A stretch of DNA of 34,158 nucleotides from an uncultured Microcaldota archaeon (GTDB lineage: Archaea; Micrarchaeota; Micrarchaeia; Burarchaeales; Fermentimicrarchaeaceae). The notes beneath the pieces were generated by a model that worked only from the letters and a program-made list of their open reading frames with translations, ran no database searches and was not told where the DNA came from. The DNA lies in assembly GCA_903884505.1 (NCBI GenBank), contig CAISET010000019.1:1-34158 (forward strand), in the 5' to 3' direction. The translations under genes and the position numbers were made by a program. The stretch's first letter is position 1. Each line of letters starts with the position of its first letter. This document shows, piece after piece, positions 7,696 through 13,274 of the stretch.

Positions 7696-7863
7696 ATGGT
7701 CGTCAAACTCTTGGGGGAAACGGGGGATTGCACGCCTGTGGAGCTCTCGCCGGTCGAAATCGGGAGCGATGACCGCACCTGCGCCGTAGAAGAGGAGGAA
7801 CGCCGGATGGTCCGCCTCGAAGAAGAGGCGAGGAAGGCGTTCTACGGAATGGCAGCCGAGTAA
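7696..7863 (+). CDS. Small acidic hypothetical protein (55 residues)
   Basis: The frame begins MVVKLLGETGDCTPVE and ends RKAFYGMAAE. The C-terminal half is a highly charged Glu/Arg helix (EEEERRMVRLEEEARK). A TATA box at 7651-7662 and GGGTGTGG just before the ATG support expression. It is the first gene of a plus-strand run leading to the HTH_10-methyltransferase fusion. I do not recognise a family and cannot assign a function. Confidence 0.55.
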   Translation: MVVKLLGETGDCTPVELSPVEIGSDDRTCAVEEEERRMVRLEEEARKAFYGMAAE

Positions 7864-7870
7864 GGGGGAA

Positions 7871-7933
7871 TCAGGAGGAACCTGAAACTGAAGGGGGCGA
7901 CAGGCCCCCTGCGGTTCGGAGGGGGTGTCGACG
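7871..7933 (+). promoter_or_regulatory. Structured leader, type 2, copy A
   Basis: The element reads TCAGGAGGAACCTGAAACTG (7871-7890), then a hairpin GGGGGC (7893-7898) / GCCCCC (7904-7909), then GCGGTTCGGAGG leading into the ribosome site. GAACC (7878-7882) can pair with GGTTC (7913-7917), enclosing the hairpin. The same order occurs at 13219-13274 with different bases in the hairpin. It lies between two small genes and would control the second. No known RNA family was recognised. Confidence 0.5.
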
Positions 7934-8224: not shown

Positions 8225-8258
8225 ACTGGAGTGTATGGTTCAGCAGGAGGTGAGAATA

Positions 8259-9734
8259 ATGAAAGAGGTTGTTTTTTCGATATACCATCATGACTGCTGG
8301 GGACCGAAGACGAGCGAAGCGTTCCCGGAGCTGAAAATCAAGCTAATGTCAAATCCGGTGTTTCAGAGGCAGAAGGGAAAGGGGGGAGTTTTTACGGCTC
8401 TCTGGAACTTCAAGGCGCATGATACAACGCAGCTGAACGACGTGGTCAGCTATGTGAGAGGCCTGCCGACTACGGTGAAGTTCGAGCCTGTGCAGAAGGG
8501 AATGACGAGCATTACTGCGCTTATGGGCATAAAGACGGACGGCCTGGCGATGAGCAGGCTGCTGGAGAACAATTGCCATATCGCGAAGCCGCTCGTGGTG
8601 CAGGGAGGCTTGGAGCACTGGGACGTGATTACGGAAGAAGGGCTGGGCACGAAGAAGCTTCTTGATGAGCTGGCGGAGGTCGGCGAGATAAAAGTCAAGA
8701 GCCTTGGGAAGCACGAAGTGGAGAATAACGAATTTGAGCTTACGGAGAAGCAGCGGGAGGCGCTCAACCTTGCAATCAGACGGGGGTATTATTCGTGGCC
8801 AAGGAAGGTTACGCTGGAGGAGCTCGCCGAGCTGGCTGGTGTGTCGAGGGTTACATTTGAAAACCATCTCAGGAAGGCAGAGGCGAGGGCCGTAGGACCA
8901 CTCCTCTCAGAGACTGTGTTCGGAGAGGAGGATGACGGGGATCTGGTTGGGGTTGTGCGCAGAAGGGCGAAGAGGGAGCCGGCACGCCCTGAACCGCCCA
9001 AGCCAAAGGAGTTCATCCAAATGTCCGCGTATATCGACCTGGACCAGTACCAGATTTTCGAGCTGAAGCACCCGTTCTATGTGGAAATGATGGAAAGGAT
9101 GGTGGAAGTTGCGGAAGCGGAGAAGCCCGGGGGGCAGCTGAGGCTGCTGGAGATAGGCGCTGGGACTGGGATATTCACATCAAGGCTCCGCAAGATCAAG
9201 GAGGCGTCAATAACCTGCGTTGAGCCGGACGCGAACTGCTTCAAGACGCTTGTGAAAGCGTTCAGCGGCGGAAATCAGAAACTCAGACTGGCAAAGGAGG
9301 ATGGAGTCACATTCAGGGGAGCTGCGCCATACGACTATTGTCTCTCGAGCTTCGCGCACCACCACATCCCATACGGCAAGAGAAAGGAGTATGCTGCAAA
9401 CATAAAGGCGAACCTGAAGAAGGGCGGCGCATACGTTGTGGGGGATGAGTTCATACCTGACTTCAGCAATGAAGAGGAAAGGAAAGAGTCGCTGAAGAGG
9501 TACCACAACTACATAATCGACCTTGCAGAGAAGCAGGGGAACCACGAGACTGCTGAACTGGAGAGAATCTTCCTGGAAAAGAACCTGCAGGGCGAGGAGT
9601 ATAAGATTTCCTGCAATATGTTCGAGGAGGAGATGCGGAGCGCCGGCCTCAAGGTTGAGCAAAAGATGAAGATGGGGCCGATGGAAAGGGATGACGTTGG
9701 TGGAATTTATGTTTATGTTGTGAGGAAGGCTTAG
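8259..9734 (+). CDS. HTH_10 regulator fused to a SAM-dependent methyltransferase
   Basis: The protein has 491 residues. The N-terminal domain (1-155) begins MKEVVFSIYHHDCWGPK, the His-His-Asp-Cys-Trp start shared with the paralog at 10567. Residues about 160-210 form an HTH_10 (bacterio-opsin-activator type) helix-turn-helix: TEKQREALNLAIRRGYYSWP, then VTLEELAELAGVS. From about 265 a class I methyltransferase follows, with SAM-binding motif I LLEIGAGTGIFT at about 296-307 and an acidic CVEPDANC strand end. GGAGGTGA just before the ATG at 8259 fixes this start; the in-frame ATG at 8235 gives an extra eight residues that the paralogs lack. A regulator covalently joined to a methyltransferase suggests a sensor-enzyme or self-modulating regulator. 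Its stop overlaps that of the convergent methyltransferase gene. Confidence 0.85.
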   Translation: MKEVVFSIYHHDCWGPKTSEAFPELKIKLMSNPVFQRQKGKGGVFTALWNFKAHDTTQLNDVVSYVRGLPTTVKFEPVQKGMTSITALMGIKTDGLAMSRLLENNCHIAKPLVVQGGLEHWDVITEEGLGTKKLLDELAEVGEIKVKSLGKHEVENNEFELTEKQREALNLAIRRGYYSWPRKVTLEELAELAGVSRVTFENHLRKAEARAVGPLLSETVFGEEDDGDLVGVVRRRAKREPARPEPPKPKEFIQMSAYIDLDQYQIFELKHPFYVEMMERMVEVAEAEKPGGQLRLLEIGAGTGIFTSRLRKIKEASITCVEPDANCFKTLVKAFSGGNQKLRLAKEDGVTFRGAAPYDYCLSSFAHHHIPYGKRKEYAANIKANLKKGGAYVVGDEFIPDFSNEEERKESLKRYHNYIIDLAEKQGNHETAELERIFLEKNLQGEEYKISCNMFEEEMRSAGLKVEQKMKMGPMERDDVGGIYVYVVRKA

Positions 9735-13193: not shown

Positions 13194-13218
13194 GGATCTA
13201 TCTTGATTGGAGGGGTCA

Positions 13219-13274
13219 GGAGGAGCCTCAAACTGGGGGAACCAGCGGTTCCCGCGGTTCGGGAGGTGTGAGTT
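13219..13274 (+). promoter_or_regulatory. Structured leader, type 2, copy B
   Basis: TCAGGAGGAGCCTCAAACTG (13216-13235) is followed by a hairpin GGGAACC (13237-13243) / GGTTCCC (13247-13253) with an AGC loop, then GCGGTTCGGGAGG into the ribosome site. GAGCC (13223-13227) can pair with GGTTC (13256-13260) using one G-U pair. In copy A the corresponding stems are GAACC/GGTTC and GGGGGC/GCCCCC. A second GGTTC inside the hairpin offers a mutually exclusive pairing. Confidence 0.5.

Follow-up and report, generated by a model that had tools for sequence, protein, structure and literature searches.

Within the window, by which we mean the whole 34,158-nucleotide stretch of archaeal DNA that was analysed, two stretches are probably copies of a mobile DNA element from DPANN archaea, one that is short, non-coding and non-autonomous and has a triplex-forming 3′ end. 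Computation shows that they belong to a family with covariation of both paired and mirror-related bases, a fixed 3′ end, flanking duplications and spread. The initial annotation had presented the two stretches as a conserved RNA element or mobile regulatory cassette. Of this, the conserved fold stands (compensatory changes in the hairpin), and so does the mobility (11 copies in the genome, flanking duplications, identical elements in unrelated flanks), whereas the RNA leader and its regulatory role are not supported.

The two window copies are genuine and beyond chance. The motif TCAGGAGGA-N-CCTS-AAACTG has two exact matches in the window, where 0.02 are expected even with three mismatches allowed, and the pattern TCAGGAGGANCCTSAAACTG occurs exactly twice within it. 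Downstream of the pattern, each copy has a hairpin and then GCGGTTCGG, and single-strand folding shows that both copies form the hairpin. The annotated leader type in two copies is present without a mismatch to the pattern, but its limits had to be redrawn (Table 1), the element being slightly longer than first given because the G-run before TCAGG is part of it. The inner arms of the hairpin are indeed unlike in sequence yet paired in both copies, as had been seen. A change from A-U to G-U in the outer stem, which had also been claimed, is absent: the two window copies have the same AACTG/CGGTT stem, as do 84 of 86 distinct elements.

Table 1. Element copies in the window and their parts.
Feature	Position	Strand	Evidence
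Element copy 1 (core, 57 nt)	7863..7919	+	Covariance model match, 74.9 bits, E 1.4e-14
Copy 1, 5′ purine strand AGGGGGAA, mirror of hairpin purine arm, putative triplex third strand	7863..7870	+	Sequence, mirror covariation
Copy 1, conserved linker TCAGGAGGAACCTG, small stem TC/GA	7871..7884	+	Alignment A2
Copy 1, AAACTG-hairpin-CGGTT: outer stem AACTG/CGGTT, inner stem AGGGGGC/GCCCCCT	7885..7916	+	Folding, covariation
Copy 1, 3′ terminal CGG, fixed 3′ end of the family	7917..7919	+	Copy similarity and flanking duplications break here
Element copy 2 (core, 55 nt)	13208..13262	+	Covariance model match, 68.4 bits, E 4.8e-13
Copy 2, 5′ purine-rich strand TGGAGGGG, partial mirror of arm GGGGAACC	13208..13215	+	4/7 triads
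Copy 2, conserved linker TCAGGAGGAGCCTC	13216..13229	+	Sequence, alignment A2
Copy 2, AAACTG-hairpin-CGGTT: outer stem AACTG/CGGTT, inner stem GGGAACC/GGTTCCC	13230..13259	+	Folding, covariation
Copy 2, 3′ terminal CGG	13260..13262	+	Copy similarity and flanking duplications break here

The pattern AAACTG-N-GCGGTTCGG is found in eight places in the 1.5-Mb genome to which the window belongs (none for the reversed pattern used as a control), and in 10 of 60 genomes, this one included. Two pattern matches (L009 and L021), apparently due to chance and with no surrounding element, were excluded from alignment A2, as were the big-loop copies L006, L015, L018, L023 and L033, which were later recovered by the covariance model. 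This model, R1, was built on 26 copies; it detects 11 copies in the window's genome and, across the class, one or more matches in 55 of 301 genomes, with a maximum of 18 per genome. In total, 127 model matches correspond to 98 unique copies. A covariance-model search in relatives, which the initial annotation had proposed as a check, thus does find further copies, but these are not specifically upstream of genes. A scan of GTDB contigs returned 40 stretches. Every one of them has an archaeal title, for the most part Micrarchaeota or 'ainarchaeum', along with one Aenigmatarchaeota and one Diapherotrites. The exact pattern has no match in viral contigs, and an 11.5-kb stretch of the window has none among plasmids. 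The whole window gives no Rfam match at the gathering threshold, and a relaxed search around copy 1 returns matches only far below gathering scores. A search of open-access full texts yielded no publication describing an element of this kind in these archaea. So far, the element has been found only in DPANN-type archaea.

In the hairpin, 99.2% of cells are paired across 26 copies and seven pairs have changed on both sides, amounting to 35 cells versus 8.9 when shuffled, with none of 500 shuffles as good. The first eight bases of the element have no consistent Watson-Crick explanation, and are the mirror image of the 5′ purine arm of the hairpin. Among 12 distinct pairs, the mirror holds at 86 of 96 positions, versus 63.1 (SD 3.7) when shuffled; the direct orientation is at chance level. 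Among 86 distinct elements, the first strand opposite an A-T pair is A in 80 cases, T in 5 and G in 9, and opposite a G-C pair it is G in 469, A in 9 and C in 2; canonical triads make up 554 of 602 cells. The 29 distinct combinations comprise 203 triads, of which 172 fit, versus 128.7 (SD 5.1) for shuffles that ignore relatedness (0 of 20,000), and shifting the strands by one reduces the fit to the mirror rule from 0.85 to at most 0.67. The purine strand and the purine arm of the hairpin covary as G·G-C, A·A-T and T·A-T. Copies of the GGGGAGGG...GGGAGGGG type obey the mirror rule; the exceptions are a few copies, mostly with C-containing arms, among them window copy 2, which fits the triplex rule poorly (four of seven positions).

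These three triads are those of the antiparallel purine motif, which form in DNA and cannot form in RNA according to the work on Escherichia coli triplex repeats (Holder et al. 2015, PMC4666352). The element also has the strand order that the same paper terms class I, i.e., third strand, purine, pyrimidine, with the third strand mirroring the purine strand. Since the mirror covariation follows the purine-motif rule, a DNA fold rather than an RNA fold is indicated. We infer from the sequences that the 5′ G-rich strand and the hairpin would form an antiparallel purine-motif triplex. In L006, L015, L018, L023 and L033, the linker stem contains two additional hairpins, and L042 has two in the loop of the main hairpin; their sequences are unrelated from one copy to the next.

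Compensatory changes in a hairpin could also be the mark of a cis-regulatory leader, in which a folded 5′ untranslated RNA responds to some signal and regulates the gene that follows it, and plausible start codons do lie shortly downstream of both window copies. This reading is nevertheless very unlikely, and we rejected it on account of the DNA-type mirror rule, which is not a Watson-Crick RNA feature, and of where the copies lie. They show no orientation bias to neighbouring ORFs, the downstream ORF being sense in 24 cases and antisense in 19 (44 copies outside predicted ORFs), with crude ORF calls that place 47 of 91 copies inside some predicted ORF. L030 is antisense to a DUF63 gene, other copies sit within tRNA introns or at tRNA 3′ ends, and Rfam has no such family. 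Any effect on neighbouring genes is probably incidental.

As for tRNA genes, 13 of 98 copies either lie inside an ARAGORN call or have a 3′ end no more than 12 nt away from one (31 calls in 345 kb). Copies are found at the 5′ ends of tRNAs for Leu, Thr (twice, at apparently orthologous sites), Ser and Cys, in antisense at the 3′ ends of tRNAs for Ala, Leu and Ala, and inside introns of tRNAs for Thr, Arg and Gly, with another two intron calls, L020 and L105, being doubtful. By eye, L022 and L032 are also within tRNAs. Copies also follow stop codons. In L002 (window's genome, contig C2, 1440–1600), the T-loop of a tRNA-Gly(GCC) is interrupted by an insertion with the element in antisense. When examined by hand, this insertion fits a bulge-helix-bulge intron (central helix UUCA/UGAA, bulges AAU and ACU), and removing the putative intron restores a normal T-loop. 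A bulge-helix-bulge intron was rejected as a general explanation: L002 fits, but the anticodon-loop insertion L032 misfits at the element end.

In many copies, the 13–26 nt directly 3′ of the invariant end ...GCGGTTCGG are repeated just upstream of the element. When the 80 nt upstream and downstream were compared for the 96 of 98 unique copies that have both flanks, a direct repeat scoring at least 22 was found in 24 of 96 copies versus 4 of 960 mismatched controls, and one scoring at least 32 in 15 of 96 copies versus no control. A stricter, ungapped test is passed by 18 of 95 copies (null, 0 of 942). The downstream repeat begins 0–5 nt past the last G of GCGGTTCGG in 23 of 98 copies, versus 3 of 1,904 controls. 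Mismatches between duplicates amount to 12 of 288 at positions 1–16 versus 30 of 108 at positions 17–22 (Fisher P = 3e-10), a contrast that is partly built in because selection used positions 1–18. With selection on positions 19–48 instead, six copies pass: L015, L016, L030 and L140 taken together have a single mismatch in the 64 bases that make up their first 16 positions, and L002 and L043 correspond to a neighbouring tRNA and a tandem repeat, respectively.

In the window's genome, L001, L006, L008 and L042 bear a duplication. Most copies are without one, including both window copies (scores of 15 and 14, the 99th percentile of controls being 21), and some 3′ junctions have extra A residues. 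Repeats of the downstream flank all lie within about 125 nt upstream (17 are near), and beyond 250 nt there is none in 163,480 bases, as in the control. A larger element with a distant second end was therefore rejected, all the available upstream sequence having been searched. A MITE was also rejected because terminal inverted repeats are absent: on inspection of A2, the left GGGGAGGG and the right GGTTCGG are not inverted copies.

Identical elements occur at unrelated sites. One 57-mer is present five times (L019, L045, L048, L049 and L108) with mutually unrelated flanks, and one 55-mer also occurs five times, two of its copies being L011 and L089, which share a gene junction. In some copies the similarity extends upstream: L062 and L129 are 100% identical over 77 nt upstream, through the element and for 6 nt beyond, diverging thereafter; L081 and L084 have 158 nt of upstream sequence in common at 87%; and L091, L101, L116 and L070 share a body with nested hairpins by inspection. 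Since these shared bodies differ in length and end at the same 3′ end, the element is best described as a constant 3′ end with a variable 5′ extent. In genome G066, an element follows rtcB (Pfam RtcB) and the last 13 rtcB codons are repeated beyond it, while the rtcB 3′ ends of three congeners are without element. Together, the fixed 3′ end, the upstream duplicates, the unrelated flanks and the shared bodies are a signature of short mobile elements.

L011 (1420–1560) and L089 (800–910) lie at the same gene junction, between the genes for the AcnX large and small subunits, in two species. The element is identical in both, the upstream flanks have ~79% identity and the downstream junctions differ; in L011, both genes are intact despite the duplication. 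In L060 (1501–1666), two different family elements are in tandem, 54 nt apart.

The duplicated gene ends have an unexpected property. Across eight Pfam-supported loci, 18 codons differ between the duplicates, and in 15 the change is synonymous; the rtcB differences include TTA versus CTG. By our own estimate, ~40% would be synonymous in a freely drifting remnant (P = 0.0002), in a test that rests on few loci because L015, L059 and L030 carry 11 of the 15. In this count, L024 was read in the NifU frame (none synonymous, one not), L030 only from its ATG, and L118, L120, L008, L042, L031 and others were excluded for want of a Pfam-supported frame. In L059 (1450–1615), L015, L030 and L031, the differences are almost only synonymous, as if the sequence had been recoded or imported from another lineage. 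Target duplication followed by plain drift was rejected as an account of all copies, since it does not predict this excess. A diverged allele of the gene may have come in with the insertion or been encountered afterwards; alternatively, the remnant is under some other constraint.

Duplicates that differ mostly synonymously in several genes, much like two functional alleles, would also be produced by a non-mobile fragile site, at which a triplex repeat breaks at its 3′ base and repair copies a related chromosome from slightly upstream, leaving the duplicate as a homeologous scar. The triplex repeats of E. coli have been linked to local instability (PMC4666352). We consider this scenario improbable, since it leaves unexplained both the identical elements in unrelated flanks and the shared bodies with a common 3′ end.

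For the mobile element that we favour, the invariant part would be the 55–60 nt 3′ end, which a structured body of 0 to ~150 nt may precede. As a single DNA strand, this end would fold into the hairpin, with its AACTG/CGGTT outer stem and free inner arms, and the 5′ G-rich strand would fold back into the major groove of the hairpin as an antiparallel purine-motif triplex. Upon insertion, the exact 3′ end ...GCGGTTCGG would be joined to the target and a 13–26 nt target duplicate left upstream. The copies presumably do not encode the mobilising enzyme, and a recombinase acting in trans may recognise a single-stranded DNA stage.

No association with a partner enzyme was found for reverse transcriptase, Y1 transposase or Cas1, and no clear one for tyrosine recombinase, in comparisons of genome classes that were made by eye and ignore relatedness. 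Tyrosine recombinase (PF00589) is present in 15 of 20 copy-rich versus 13 of 20 match-free genomes, with one below the cut-off in each class. Cas1 occurs equally often in copy-rich and match-free genomes (2 of 20 in each case) and is absent from the window's genome (G000), which does not point to a casposon. Y1 transposase (PF01797) is absent from G000, G002, G008 and G013, all of which bear copies. In REP/IS200-type Y1 systems, short hairpin repeats are believed to travel as single-stranded DNA with the help of an enzyme supplied in trans. The present element differs in having flanking duplications and in belonging to a genome with no match to Y1 transposase.

SINE-like retroelements have a fixed 3′ end, a variable 5′ extent and target duplications of variable length. 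A trans-acting reverse transcriptase copying an RNA 3′ tail by target-primed reverse transcription would leave copies that share one 3′ end, are truncated to varying degrees at the 5′ end and have target duplications of varying length. The element does have a fixed 3′ end, a body of variable length, duplications of at least 13–26 nt and additional A residues at some 3′ junctions. Such an origin is still unlikely. Reverse transcriptase (PF00078, RVT_1) has no match in the window's genome, which is 100% complete, or in G002, G008, G009 and G013, all with several copies, an unbinned extrachromosomal source being possible; moreover, the mirror rule, which is of DNA type, suggests selection on a DNA fold and not on RNA. 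Returning to the triplex-ended mobile element, a more specific version, possible but on balance doubtful, is a class of mobile elements known to date from DPANN archaea alone. In it, a selected intrastrand DNA triplex would serve as the recognition end, movement would be as single-stranded DNA, gene ends and tRNA boundaries would be the preferred sites to which the 3′ end is joined, and some loci would have received a synonymously diverged end of the target gene that keeps the gene intact.

Intrastrand triplex repeats were recognised decades ago but have no known function (PMC4666352), and two groups of them are close to the present element. The BoxC/PIT/TM-ECO repeats of E. coli and its relatives can adopt an intrastrand triplex of the purine motif (Holder et al. 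2015, PMC4666352). As in the present element, they are dispersed, G/C-rich and triplex-capable, have no functional class of neighbouring genes and vary patchily in copy number among relatives. They differ in being class II (pyrimidine strand first, third strand last), in their length of 37 nt, in having loops of 3–6 nt where the present linker is ~20 nt or more, and in being always intergenic, with no link to mobile elements found by the authors. Unlike them, the present element combines an additional, conserved outer stem with a conserved 3′ end, is flanked by duplications in some copies and is found inserted in tRNAs. Membership of BoxC/TM-ECO was rejected: the consensus CCCTCNCCC...GGGNGAGGG...GGGNGAGGG (PMC4666352) is class II, and the strand order in A2 is reversed. 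The repeat finder used in that work would miss the present elements because its loops were limited to 1–6 nt.

The second group, the repeated G-rich sequences of Methanomicrobiaceae, are class I triplex-capable archaeal repeats (Chashchina et al. 2021, PMC8044849). Like the present element, they are archaeal and dispersed, with a G-rich strand 5′ of a C-rich tract and without strand bias. For these repeats an antiparallel triplex was indicated in vitro (PMC8044849), whereas that of the present element is predicted from sequence. They also differ by a central loop of 3–5 nt, by being all intergenic and by belonging to another archaeal lineage, and the available part of that paper reports no conserved outer stem or 3′ end and no evidence of mobility. 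Neither conserved outer stem and 3′ end, nor mirror covariation, nor flanking duplications are reported in the accessible portions of the two papers (PMC4666352, PMC8044849).

The present family shows evolutionary covariation for the triplex itself, beyond mere sequence potential, together with marks of insertion. This makes it a testable question whether a triplex can be an end recognised by a recombinase, and it adds a mobile repeat to DPANN archaea. If the more specific version, with a selected triplex as the recognition end, is correct, the triplex repeats of E. coli and methanogens would gain a plausible origin as ends of mobile elements. The family also calls for caution with repeated "leader" structures in DPANN genomes, which may be mobile-element ends.

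Two further features of the window were observed. On the plus strand, positions 8235–9734 encode a 499-residue protein in which an HTH_10 DNA-binding domain is joined to a methyltransferase domain. Between 26118 and 28658, a diverged repeat is present four times in tandem, 73–84% alike over 300 nt with a spacing of ~750; the repeats lie within minus-strand ORFs and are apparently a tandem gene family.
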